DNA from: Sulfurovum sp.
GTDB lineage: Bacteria > Campylobacterota > Campylobacteria > Campylobacterales > Sulfurovaceae
Reading direction: 5' to 3'
Length of the DNA: 37,729 nucleotides
NCBI GenBank assembly: GCA_030949325.1
Contig: JAUZSQ010000011.1
Span: 1-37,729, forward strand
In this document: positions 25,089 through 30,295 of the stretch, piece by piece
Numbering within the stretch: the stretch's first letter is position 1
How the letters are laid out: each line of letters begins with the position of its first letter
Position numbers and translations under genes: made by a program
The notes under the pieces: model-generated
What the model was told of the DNA's origin: nothing
Databases searched by the model: none
The model's input: the letters and a program-made list of their open reading frames with translations, nothing else

Positions 25089-28000
25089 TTACTGACATCC
25101 TACACACTCTTGGCTTCTATCTTCTACATCTCCAGAACTCTCAGGAGATTGACTTCTTAGATAATAGGTAGATTTGAGTCCAAACTTCCATGCATTCATA
25201 TAAATCTCATTGAGATATTTACCCGAAGCTTTGTCTAGGGTAATAAAGATATTGAGACTCTGCCCTTGGTCTAGCCACTTTTGACGAATCGCCCCTGCTT
25301 TGATGAGGATATTTTGATCCAAATCATACGCAGGAGTGTAATACTCCCATGTATCAGCAGAAAGATTGGGTGCTACCACAGGAATGAGACCTGAAAGATT
25401 TTCTTCAAACCATTTTCGCTTATACACGGGTTCAATCGCTTGGGTCGTACCTGTGAGAATAGAAATCGAACTCGTAGGAGCAATCGCCATCAAATAGCCA
25501 TTACGCATACCATCACTTTTGACCTTTTCTTTGAGTCCTAACCAATCATGACTATATCCAAATAGCCCTCCTCTATCTACCAATTTACACGCCTCAGCAT
25601 TGGCTTTGTCTATAGGGAAAATCCCTTGACTCCAATCTGAACCTTCAAAAGTAGGATATTTTCCTTTTTCAAGTGCCAAGTTAGAAGACGCTTCAATCGT
25701 ATAATAAGAAAAAGACTCCATCACTTCATCTATCTTCTCAAAATGCTTCGCAGACCCCCATTTTATCTTGGACTCTGCCAACATTTGTGCCTCACCCATC
25801 ACACCCAAACCAATAGAACGTGATTTGGCATTGGTCTTTTTGACTTTGGCAAGAGGATAAAAATTGAGGTCAATGACATTGTCAAGCATCCGTATCGCAA
25901 TAGGCACTACCCGTTCCAAATCTTCTCTGGTATGTACCTTAGAGAGGTTGACAGAAGCCAAGTTACACACAGCCGTATCCCCATCAGTCTTTTCTTTATC
26001 TACTATCCAAATTTGCTTACCATTAAGACTGTCCAATGCCGTAATCTTCTTCGCAGGTTTTGTCGTACCATTGCCCACTGTGAGCATCTCATTTTCATCA
26101 TAGGCTTCTACACTCCCATCATCAAAAGTAAATCGTGTTTTATAGGTATTTGGACTGGTATTTTGAAATATTTCTGTACATAAGTTGGTACTTCGTATCA
26201 CCCCAACATGCTTATTAGGATTGGCACGGTTTGCCGTATCTTTGAAGGTCAAGAAAGGATTACCCGTCTCAAAATATGAACGTAACATCTCTTTCCAAAG
26301 CTTCTTCGCAGACACCGTCTCTCTCGTAATCTCATCATCAGAGTTTTCAAGCTCTTCATAACGTGCTTCAAAGGCTTCACCATACAAGGTGGTCAGTTCA
26401 GGCACTTCAAAAGGGTCAAAAAGCGTCCACATTTCATCTTTTTGCACCCTATCCATAAAGATATCATTCAGCCACAAAGCAGGAAATAAATCATGGGCAC
26501 GTCGTCTCTCTTCTCCAGAGTTTTTCTTTAAGTCCAAAAAATCACGTATATCCATATGCCACGGTTCGATATAGACAGCGATTGCGCCCTTTCTCGTACC
26601 CAATTGGTCAACAGCAATCGCCACATCATTTACAATTTTCAAAAATGGTACAATCCCTCCAGCTGCGTGTTTGTGTCCATCAATATAAGAACCCATACCA
26701 CGCACCAAAGACCAATCCCAACCGATACCACCACCAAATTTAGAAAGTAATGCCATCTCTTTAAAGGCATCAAAGATACCTTCAATATTATCAGGAGTTG
26801 ACCCGATATAGCAGTTATGTACATTCACTCCTGCTACAGAATAAGAATGATCATCTTCTACTTCAATATTATACACTTTTTCTTCAATATAAGATTCTGT
26901 TTTATCAATAATTTTCATAAAATATTCATTTTTGAACCAAAAATATCTTAACGTAGATTTGACATTAAGATTTATATCTAAATGAATATTCTTAAGGTTC
27001 TTATTGACATCTATCACAAAACTTTTATCTTCTCTTACGCCTATTTTAAGATGAGAGGCTTTAATTGTAGCAAATTTATGTTTTTGAGCATCTTCTTTCA
27101 TGTATGGAGAAAGACCACAACGCAAAGCAATTTCAAAAAGTTGTTGTATCAATTTTTGATTTGACATTGTGAGTTGATAGCCCTCTTTTAACGCACATCC
27201 GTCACCACGAATAGCAGCAACCAAGAGCCACTTTTGTACTTTTGGATTTGCAAATAATATATCATTATTAAGTATTTTTTTATCAAACCCTGTACCTACT
27301 AATTTATAGAAGAAGAGAGCAATAATTTTACTATGTACAATAACATTCGTACTATTATCTTTATTTACATTAACACAAACTTTCACATCAAAAATATCTT
27401 CTAAAATTTGCCTTGTCTCTTCTATATAAGAAACTTCTTTGCTTCCAAAAGTGAAAGTAATAGAATTTTTCTCTTTTGAGATATGTCCTTCTGCCAAGAA
27501 ATAGCCCATTAAAAGCATAAAGTCTTTTGAGAGTTTAATTTTATTGCGTACAGATTGAATTTGATTGCTTAGAAAGCTTCTTTCCACAGCATAGAAAGAC
27601 TTACTCGTTCTTTTAAACATCATCTTTCCATCAACTTCAATAAGATTTTTTGTTTGTACATAATCAGAAATATAAATGGTATCTTTGCCTTCATATTGGG
27701 GATAAGAAACGGAAACAAAATCACCTTTATCTAAATCTTCCATTTTATGCCAAGTAGAGGAAAAGTCTTTGTCTAAAAGTTCACAATCTTTTTTATATTC
27801 ACCTTTAAGGCTGAAACATCTTTTGGATTGACCTTGATTTAAAATACAATTACCTAATTTTCTAATGCACTTAATATCCTCTTTCTTCAAAGCCAAAACA
27901 GGATGTTCTTCGGTAGCATCCAAAGATTTTATCAAACCATTAATATCCAAAGAGATTAAATTTCGTGCATAATCTCTTTCAAAAAGTTCATAGACTTTCA

Positions 28001-28745
28001 TAAAACGATTTTTATGCGTAAGCACCATATCACCTAATTCTATCTTATCAATGGCTTTATAACCCTCAATTGTTCTTACTTCTGTACCTTTAGTAAAACA
28101 GCTCGATAATTGGTGACGGGGTGTCCTAGCATTGGAAAGTGTAGGTGTTGCAGCCATGACTTCAAACTTACTCAAAATGTCATAGAACTTCTTTGCCCAT
28201 GTTTGACAATCAAACTCATTTTGAGCCAAGAACATTGCCACACCCATAAAGAGTTGCTGAGGGAGTTCTATGGGACTACCATTTCCGTCTTTGAGTAGAT
28301 AACGGTCATAGAGTGTTCTAATGCCCAAATAGGTAAACTGTAAATCCCGTTCGGGTTTGAGATAATCATTGAGTTCATCAAGGTCATATTTGTCTTTAAG
28401 CCCCAAGACAATACGCCCCTCTTTTTCACCTCGAATAAAATAATCACGCAAATGCTGATAGCCTGTAAAACCTGTAGCCTTATGATAAATATCATACAAA
28501 AATAGACGAGAAGCGACAAAAGTCCAATCGGGTCTATCAATATCTATCTTATCCACAGCCGTTTTTATAAGTGTTGTTTGTATCTCTTCAGAAGTAATCA
28601 TATCCCGAAATTGAAGTTTGGCATCAACTTCAAGTTCACTTTGGCTCACCCGAACCAATCCTTTGACTGCATCTGCTGTATATTTTTGTATTTTGGATAC
28701 ATCTAGTGTCTCAACACGTCCACTTCTCTTGACAACTCTAATCAT
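25089..28745 (-). CDS. nrdA: Class I ribonucleotide reductase alpha subunit with in-frame intein
   Basis: Reduces ribonucleoside diphosphates to deoxy forms, with a radical supplied by NrdB (not in the window). 1218 codons; after removal of residues 216-644 about 789 remain, the normal size. An ATP cone is at the N-terminus (VVKRSGRVETLDVSKI). Active-site features are STNLCTEI (Asn, Cys, Glu), VCNLASVNLSK with the redox partner cysteine, the radical-path tyrosines in STYYLRS and a C-terminal CVGCQ thiol pair. A segment of about 55 residues between NLCTEI and VCNLAS is longer than in E. coli NrdA. The ATG follows AGAGGAG. Divergent from the monooxygenase-aldolase pair. Needs protein splicing for activity. 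Confidence 0.96.
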   Translation of the reverse strand: MIRVVKRSGRVETLDVSKIQKYTADAVKGLVRVSQSELEVDAKLQFRDMITSEEIQTTLIKTAVDKIDIDRPDWTFVASRLFLYDIYHKATGFTGYQHLRDYFIRGEKEGRIVLGLKDKYDLDELNDYLKPERDLQFTYLGIRTLYDRYLLKDGNGSPIELPQQLFMGVAMFLAQNEFDCQTWAKKFYDILSKFEVMAATPTLSNARTPRHQLSSCFTKGTEVRTIEGYKAIDKIELGDMVLTHKNRFMKVYELFERDYARNLISLDINGLIKSLDATEEHPVLALKKEDIKCIRKLGNCILNQGQSKRCFSLKGEYKKDCELLDKDFSSTWHKMEDLDKGDFVSVSYPQYEGKDTIYISDYVQTKNLIEVDGKMMFKRTSKSFYAVERSFLSNQIQSVRNKIKLSKDFMLLMGYFLAEGHISKEKNSITFTFGSKEVSYIEETRQILEDIFDVKVCVNVNKDNSTNVIVHSKIIALFFYKLVGTGFDKKILNNDILFANPKVQKWLLVAAIRGDGCALKEGYQLTMSNQKLIQQLFEIALRCGLSPYMKEDAQKHKFATIKASHLKIGVREDKSFVIDVNKNLKNIHLDINLNVKSTLRYFWFKNEYFMKIIDKTESYIEEKVYNIEVEDDHSYSVAGVNVHNCYIGSTPDNIEGIFDAFKEMALLSKFGGGIGWDWSLVRGMGSYIDGHKHAAGGIVPFLKIVNDVAIAVDQLGTRKGAIAVYIEPWHMDIRDFLDLKKNSGEERRRAHDLFPALWLNDIFMDRVQKDEMWTLFDPFEVPELTTLYGEAFEARYEELENSDDEITRETVSAKKLWKEMLRSYFETGNPFLTFKDTANRANPNKHVGVIRSTNLCTEIFQNTSPNTYKTRFTFDDGSVEAYDENEMLTVGNGTTKPAKKITALDSLNGKQIWIVDKEKTDGDTAVCNLASVNLSKVHTREDLERVVPIAIRMLDNVIDLNFYPLAKVKKTNAKSRSIGLGVMGEAQMLAESKIKWGSAKHFEKIDEVMESFSYYTIEASSNLALEKGKYPTFEGSDWSQGIFPIDKANAEACKLVDRGGLFGYSHDWLGLKEKVKSDGMRNGYLMAIAPTSSISILTGTTQAIEPVYKRKWFEENLSGLIPVVAPNLSADTWEYYTPAYDLDQNILIKAGAIRQKWLDQGQSLNIFITLDKASGKYLNEIYMNAWKFGLKSTYYLRSQSPESSGDVEDRSQECVGCQ
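26814..28100 (-). mobile_element. Intein with LAGLIDADG homing endonuclease in NrdA
   Basis: 429 residues in frame (NrdA residues 216-644). Starts CFTKGTEVRTIEGYKAIDKI (splicing block A, Cys1) and has SLDATEEHPVLAL (block B with the His). It ends VYNIEVEDDHSYSVAGVNVHN, with the penultimate His, terminal Asn and then Cys+1. Two LAGLIDADG-type motifs are present: LLMGYFLAEGHI and LLVAAIRGDGCA. The extein junction is HQLSS / CYIGST, so Cys+1 is the conserved active-site cysteine matching E. coli NrdA Cys225 (FSSC). All splicing residues are present, so it should splice. The endonuclease acidic residues (E and D) are also kept, so it may still be mobile. Confidence 0.95.
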
Positions 28746-29144: not shown

Positions 29145-30295
29145 ATGCAAAACTTATGGGATGATGCCAAAGCATCGGAGTGTAAAACAGATTTGGAGAT
29201 GAGAGTCTATACTTCCAATCTCTTAGGACAAAGTGACGCGTTGGTGCTTCATGGTGGAGGCAATACTTCCGTTAAGTCTATAGTAGAGGGCGAAGAAATC
29301 CTCTATGTCAAAGGCTCAGGCTGGGATTTGGTGTCTATAAAGGCAGAAGGTTTTGCTCCTGTCAAGATGGCTACCTTGCTAGATATGGCAAAGATGAAAA
29401 ACCTCTCAGATACCGATATGGTCTCAGGACAAAAAAAGGCGATGATAGACGCTACGGCTCCGAACCCCTCAGTAGAAGCCATCCTTCACGCACTCATACC
29501 CTTTAAAGTCGTTGACCATACCCATGCTGATGCGATAGTGACCATCTCAAACAGTAAGAAAGGACAGACTTTGATAGCTGAACTCTTTCCTCGTTTTCTC
29601 ATCGTGCCTTATGTCATGCCTGGCTTTATCTTGGCACAAAAGATTTATGAGATGACAGAACAATCACTTTGATTGGGAGTCTTGTGAGGGCATGATTTTG
29701 CACAATCATGGTATCTTTACCTTTGATAATGATGCACAAAAATCCTACACCAAAATGATAGAAGCCGTGAGCTTAGCCGAAGACTTTTTAGAAGAACATG
29801 CTCCTATTACCCTAAATGAATGTGAAGCCACAAACTTTTACATAGAGGATTTATCTATATCTAAATTTATGCACATCAATCCAAAGCCCTCTAGCCCTAC
29901 ATTACGCTTCACAAGATGATTTGAGAACCAAAGTCACAAGAGGAGTCTTGACCCCAGAACACATCATCCGAACCAAAAGAGTCCCTTGGGTCATAGACAA
30001 TGAAGACGTAGAAGATGCCTTGCGACATTTCAAAGTAGCCTACCAAGCCTATTTCTCTGCCTACAGCAACACTGAAATCATGCTTGATAGCAACCCAAAA
30101 TACGCCGTCATCAAAAACTTCGGAGTCATAAGCTTTGGCAGAACCCAAAAAGAAGCAGATGTCATCAACGATGTCATCTCCCACACCATGACAGCAGTCC
30201 TACGAGCCGATAAATTGGGTGGATATAAGAGTATCTCTATCGCTGATAGCTTTGATATGGAGTACTGGGAATTGGAACAGAATAAATTGAAGTAG
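29145..30295 (+). CDS. Class II aldolase/adducin-family protein, two frameshifts as sequenced
   Basis: Zinc-dependent aldolase fold. The first frame has LVLHGGGNTSVK (phosphate-binding loop), YVKGSGWDLVSI, and the zinc histidines in VDHTHADAI. The second has MILHNHGIFTFD with a further zinc histidine. The third (HYASQDDLRTKVTRG, IRTKRVPWVIDNED, KYAVIKNFGVISFGRTQKEA) is a C-terminal extension like that of the aldolase-dehydrogenase group. Removing one T from TTT 29668-29670 and one base from AAATTT 29863-29868 restores one protein of about 382 residues. The substrate is unknown; such proteins often cleave phosphorylated sugars or oxidise sugar acids with a partner. Second gene after the small monooxygenase. 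Confidence 0.85.

Follow-up and report, generated by a model that had tools for sequence, protein, structure and literature searches.

A predicted homing intein before the Cys225 codon of the ribonucleotide reductase gene nrdA in Sulfurovum

Inteins of ribonucleotide reductase (RNR) have been treated in general before (PMC2795772, with about 80 curated by 2009), and inteins as a rule occupy conserved, functional positions: this was reported for every intein tested in PMC2814812, where it is also argued, as a general rule, that a constrained site is less able to become immune to homing. In nrdA, the gene of the RNR large subunit, inteins were described for the Campylobacter phages CP220, CPt10 and IBB_35 (PMC3653736, PMC3322345), and an intein in NrdB of Aquifex aeolicus lies between catalytic residues and was reported to splice in Escherichia coli (PMC8772380). 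Here we describe an intein in nrdA of a Sulfurovum sp. genome (GCA_030949325.1), located on contig JAUZSQ010000011.1, of which positions 1 to 37,729 were analysed as a whole and are called the window below. The intein lies directly before the codon of an active-site cysteine, and we consider it very probable that it is a class 1 cis-splicing intein with a LAGLIDADG endonuclease which splices to leave a NrdA of 789 amino acids, homes, moves horizontally and is hard to lose.

The nrdA precursor is a single open reading frame (ORF) of 1218 amino acids (25089-28745, minus strand). It matches NF006279, which we take to be the Campylobacterota-type NrdA model, with 1507.8 bits (cut-off 1082), and contains the Pfam domains ATP-cone, both large-subunit domains and LAGLIDADG_3 (PF14528, 36.2 bits, cut-off 22.5). 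Intein_splicing (PF14890) did not reach its cut-off with either the complete precursor or the isolated intein sequence; PT-HINT and Hint_2 missed theirs with the complete precursor and narrowly exceeded them with the isolated intein sequence. The intein comprises precursor residues Cys216 to Asn644 (429 amino acids, CFTKGT...VNVHN), and the joined exteins compute to 789 amino acids, the product length expected in the initial annotation. The element outlined there as 26811..28100 is real, but the lower bound takes in the +1 Cys codon, so that the intein itself spans 26814-28100. The G+C content is 0.292 in the intein versus 0.405 in the extein. As had been claimed, the splicing blocks and two LAGLIDADG motifs are intact: the splicing residues C1, T63, H66, D417, H428 and N429 are present, with Cys1, block B T63/H66 and a C-terminal VHN/C with Cys at +1 placing the intein in class 1, and the two motifs carry the acids E204 and D300. 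A search of the whole genome with the intein gave one match, itself, and hence no second copy. The features of the locus are as follows, with the basis of each in brackets.

25089..28745, minus strand: nrdA precursor ORF, 1218 amino acids, class I RNR large subunit with intein (ORF call, NrdA and Pfam models)
26814..28100, minus strand: intein, 429 amino acids, Cys1 to Asn429 (homologue comparison)
28098..28100, minus strand: intein Cys1 codon, first nucleophile (Cys in 50/50 site-a inteins)
27903..27914, minus strand: splicing block B, Thr63-x-x-His66 (homologue comparison)
27783..27869, minus strand: Cys4 module, intein Cys78, Cys85, Cys95 and Cys106 (homologue alignment, pattern search)
27483..27515, minus strand: LAGLIDADG motif 1, LLMGYFLAEGH, acid Glu204 (homologue comparison)
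27198..27221, minus strand: LAGLIDADG motif 2, VAAIRGDG, acid Asp300 (homologue comparison)
26814..26876, minus strand: splicing blocks F and G, VYNIEVEDDHSYSVAGVNVHN (translation)
26811..26813, minus strand: C-extein +1 Cys codon, extein Cys216, E. coli NrdA Cys225 (alignment)
28101..28122, minus strand: last 22 nt of the N-extein reading frame, adjoining the intein on its 5' side; synonymous codon choice is unusual, and the stretch may be a co-conversion tract (codon windows)
26595..26597, minus strand: extein Thr288 codon, site b of relatives, empty here (alignment)
26178..26180, minus strand: extein Cys427 codon (E. coli Cys439), site c of relatives, empty here (alignment)

For site numbering we used the E. 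coli NrdA from NC_000913.3. Extein C216 aligns with Cys225 of that protein, in agreement with the initial annotation, C427 with Cys439 and C498 with Cys462; the class I NrdA cysteines are thus all present. Thr288 aligns with Val297, adjoining Arg298. In E. coli NrdA, residues 225 and 462 form the redox pair, 439 carries the thiyl radical and 298 lies in loop 2. Sites a, b and c denote the positions before extein Cys216, Thr288 and Cys427, respectively. The junction HQLSS/CYIGS places the intein exactly before the active-site cysteine, as had been stated, and among 120 listed homologues (175 found) the same codon is occupied in 50. Cys1, Thr63, His66, His428 and Asn429 are kept in 50/50 of these site-a inteins and both LAGLIDADG acids are intact in 46/50. 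Site b is occupied in 13 of the 120 listed proteins and site c, by script, in 13, with P0039 rejected; because the search query was a Cys225-site intein, these counts cannot tell the frequency of inteins at b or c in proteins whose site a is free. In P0023 and P0033 the site-c inserts, which end in Gln at the script's boundary, were retained, whereas P0039 at site c (105 amino acids) and P0109 at a site d were discarded as unlike inteins on reading. Three inteins, at sites a, b and c, were noted in P0002, P0003, P0011, P0014, P0023, P0025 and P0033, and the NrdA of a Campylobacteraceae metagenome-assembled genome (MAG; L050, JAMOOQ010000042.1) has three inserts of 429, 370 and 400 amino acids.

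We then asked what the window genome (G000) offers besides this gene. It is a MAG of 2.53 Mb in 115 contigs, 93.36% complete and 4.36% contaminated. Profile searches yielded a single PF02867 large-subunit match, the nrdA of the window, and a single NrdB match (a 325-aa ORF); in this incomplete MAG there was neither an NRDD match nor another RNR large subunit. Because the only large subunit found bears the intein and NrdD was not found, the dependence of the host on splicing for de novo deoxynucleotides, which the initial annotation had proposed, is well supported, provided that no alternative is encoded in the portion absent from the assembly. The predicted course is that the intein, with Cys1, terminal Asn and Cys+1, splices out after translation and leaves the 789-residue NrdA, that the endonuclease would cut empty nrdA alleles, and that repair of the cut allele would copy in the element together with some 5' flank. 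Once in nrdA the element would be hard to lose, since nothing short of exact deletion would restore the one large subunit found.

The intein and its host protein have different closest relatives. Nearest to the intein are those of P0002 and P0003, which share about 82% of intein residues versus about 67% of extein residues with it (P0003: 82.0% and 67.2%). P0033, in reverse, is 93.8% identical in the extein and 58.9% in the intein, and overall the NrdAs of G019 (a second genome of the genus), P0007 and P0033 are 92-94% identical to the Sulfurovum protein with inteins only 59-75% identical. Trees were calculated without the near-twin sequences P0005 and P0013 and without any row whose extein is shorter than 700 amino acids. 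In the extein tree the Sulfurovum protein groups with G019, P0007 and P0033 (support 100). The approximately unbiased test, applied to the intein data, rejects a clade of the Sulfurovum sequence, G019 and P0007 (p-AU 3.0e-5); applied to the extein data, it rejects a clade of the Sulfurovum sequence with P0002 and P0003 (p-AU 1.6e-31). This conflict between intein and extein trees shows horizontal movement of the intein from one nrdA to another. A single insertion inherited vertically by G000 and G019 would be allowed by the similar silent divergence of intein and extein (proportion of synonymous differences, pS, 0.62 and 0.59, respectively), but was dropped because the intein data reject the clade with G019 and P0007. 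A phage or plasmid vector was also considered and dropped, as no close copy was present in the collections searched: a single-sequence scan of viral_contigs gave no match to the intein, and in the phage and plasmid collections 26 and 4 records matched, with a best full-length identity of 30.8%. A scan with the family alignment gave 91 relatives, of which 80 were kept, with a best full-length identity of 32% and NrdA-like flanks in 8/80.

Among 36 other genomes of the genus the site is empty in 26, so that the empty sites the initial annotation had suggested looking for in close relatives do exist; it is occupied in one (G019), cut by contig ends in two (G005, G010), and seven genomes gave no match. 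In total 2 of the 78 genus genomes searched carry the intein, the window genome included; three more matches (26-28% identity) are located elsewhere. In the order sample NrdA contains the intein in 4 of 398 genomes (G000, G019, G102 and G252, junctions read), with a weak match located elsewhere in G261, and in the class sample of 397 genomes there were matches just in G000 and G019, plus the weak one in G261. No Cys225-site intein was found in 23 genomes examined from other families of the order; in four of these (G046, G047, G056, G059) a long NrdA frame is interrupted at another position. The distribution is sporadic. Of eight genes in the window nrdA alone is present in the 10-kb stretches of G019 and of G003, an empty allele. 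Besides its intein-bearing NrdA, G102 was noted to have another, in G102:C68 (L164, L165, L168), which is divergent, with 30-38% identity to the Sulfurovum protein.

The initial annotation had described the site as unable to escape homing by mutation; in that form the statement is not supported. Within 22 bp round the site, mismatches between the Sulfurovum gene and each of the 24 empty genus alleles that have a full gene number 7-11 (median 10), all of them synonymous; G019 differs from the empties at 4-10 (median 8), and the empties among themselves at 0-8 (median 4). DNA variation at the site is plentiful while the peptide is fixed, and this plentiful synonymous variation argues against the claim. 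The Ser-Ser pair before the site is encoded AGY-TCN in 24/24 of these empties, TCG-AGC in G000 and TCT-TCG in G019. When nrdA was divided into 107 non-overlapping windows, the one of 22 nt immediately 5' of the intein came first for unusual codons in G000 (1/107) and second in G019 (2/107). In neither carrier does the 22-nt stretch 3' of the intein, or either flank of the unoccupied sites b and c, reach the 95th percentile. The 12 nt adjoining the intein, CAATTATCGAGC, are identical in G102, a member of another family; of four kin of G102 that are empty at the site, G075 and G128 have TCN-AGY and G089 and G115 do not. The anomaly suggests co-conversion during homing, and a short 5' tract from a donor of the G102/G075/G128 type would fit it, with the limit that the footprint was found by looking and that the two carriers are perhaps not independent. 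As a general mark of carriers the 5' recoding was rejected (Ser214 is TCN in G000, G019 and G102, AGY in L050 and G252).

Between the Sulfurovum and G019 inteins we found a nonsynonymous divergence (dN) of 0.19 against a synonymous divergence (dS) of 1.82 in the endonuclease part, and of 0.15 against 1.05 in the N-terminal splicing part, so that both activities look to be under selection. These values bear on the notion that the element is decayed or mis-assembled, does not splice, and that NrdA activity comes from a gene missing in the assembly. Frame-broken genes elsewhere in a MAG of 115 contigs and 93.36% completeness would agree with it; the frame open over 429 codons with splicing residues and endonuclease acids kept, the low dN against dS, the failure to find another RNR large subunit or NrdD in G000, and the same arrangement in G019 all speak against it, and we regard it as hardly credible. 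Several points weigh against a splicing and homing element. Splicing and DNA cutting are both predicted from residues, G000 is a MAG with frame-broken genes such as gyrB (though nrdA is open), and the dS between the two inteins is close to saturation. The intein tree joins the Sulfurovum intein with P0002 and P0003 at a support of 70 only, and the clades for the p-AU tests were named after the trees had been seen. Regarding the flank, one of the 24 empty alleles, G003, also ranks 1/107, with an excess of 0.041 versus 0.300 in G000 and 0.156 in G019, and the Ser214 recoding is missing from L050 and G252, two other carriers.

Cys78, Cys85, Cys95 and Cys106 lie between block B and Trp117, ahead of the endonuclease, and this Cys4 module seems to be placed inside the splicing domain. 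All four cysteines are kept in 30/31 of the closest site-a inteins. A regular expression for the module matched 37/127 homologues (36 RNR proteins and the unrelated P0091), 3/32 rows of alignment A2 (including a viral NrdA) and 0/5000 shuffles of the intein itself. P0091 has its Cys4-bearing intein before CYGTGY in a protein with no Pfam extein domain. In P0033 both endonuclease motifs are ruined and the module is absent while the splicing residues are kept, whereas P0012 and P0038, in which the acid of motif 1 is gone, retain the module. Over the 50 site-a inteins, those with intact acids have the module in 32 cases and lack it in 14, those with broken acids in 2 and 2; a tie between module and endonuclease state was therefore dropped, as no association appears. 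A search with P0033 as query found no further losses of its kind. Tentatively, the four cysteines could form a built-in metal-binding module, a bacterial intein-zinc finger composite, which might read homing-site DNA, in the manner of the recognition region of PI-SceI, or let metal or redox state gate RNR maturation.

The initial annotation had offered a splicing response to redox state or metals as a speculative extra; the Cys4 module, absent from that annotation, is the one feature found here with a bearing on it. A rival reading is that the intein is domesticated and kept as a redox- or metal-responsive switch which gates NrdA maturation via Cys225 or the Cys4 module. The +1 nucleophile does align with Cys225 and the module is present in 30/31 close relatives; zinc binds a catalytic cysteine of a mycobacterial DnaB intein and so inhibits it (PMC7360933), a DnaB intein was described as a sensor of oxidative stress (PMC6195587), and iron loading in Aquifex was reported to benefit from an R2 intein (PMC8772380). 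However, sporadic presence (Cys225-site carriers in 2/78 genus and 4/398 sampled order genomes) and horizontal movement with the endonuclease kept argue against a needed switch, as does P0033, whose NrdA is 93.8% identical to that of Sulfurovum and which has lost the module but not the splicing residues. We therefore consider such a switch very improbable, though less so than decay.

Elsewhere in the genome a second intein was noted in gyrB (L059 1338-3023, G000:C104; LVEGDSAGG/CWSAET...VFVHN/SAKQGRD), containing an HNH-like stretch; this gyrB is spread over three ORFs, pointing to frame errors in the gene or the assembly. A HINT-like stretch ends an RHS-like ORF (L060 1746-2306, G000:C52), has an internal stop in the match and is not an intein of the NrdA type. 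Within the window a class II aldolase-like gene (29145-30295, plus strand) seems split over three ORFs in different frames (29145-29672, 29692-29919, 29921-30295), either decayed or mis-sequenced.

Compared with known systems, the closest are the NrdA inteins of P0002-P0033 and L050, with the same codon and the same splicing residues. Identity to the 31 compared Cys225-site inteins, from metagenome and Campylobacterota proteins, is 43-82%; they come from different lineages, and several have extra inteins at sites b and c, both empty here. The NrdA intein of Tenacibaculum phage PTm1 (AP019524.1) is an annotated NrdA/intein ORF with its match at the same position, differing in its identity of about 30% and in a NrdA in two ORFs (L144, 2353-5765); intein sequence lies at the first of these, and the arrangement is possibly a split-intein gene. 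CP220, CPt10 and IBB_35 infect hosts of the same phylum as our bacterium. Their inteins share the gene but not the site, as the extein match runs through residue 216 in all three: in CPt10 the junction TNLC/CLAGDT...VHN/CEIS lies one codon past the Cys439 equivalent, and in IBB_35 the extein match breaks at residue 288. The Aquifex intein differs in sitting in the other RNR subunit, between di-iron ligands (PMC8772380). Neither the Cys225 position as an intein site nor the Cys4 module is named in the passages of the open literature available to us; InBase and subscription journals lay outside this scope, so newness is not claimed. The locus is a clear-cut example of a selfish element that occupies a catalytic codon in an essential enzyme with no second gene found, and the carriers, empty alleles and discordant trees offer material for studying homing in Campylobacterota. 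The DNA recognition region of PI-SceI and the zinc fingers of HO and WHO are accessory parts of intein-type endonucleases (PMC8966425, PMC7282813), as the putative Cys4 metal-binding module may be. The PI-SceI region is inserted in the HINT domain, where the Cys4 module also seems to lie, whereas the HO and WHO fingers are C-terminal and in proteins without exteins. An intein at the NrdA Cys225 site is of a kind already known, and the conserved Cys4 module is its least expected feature.

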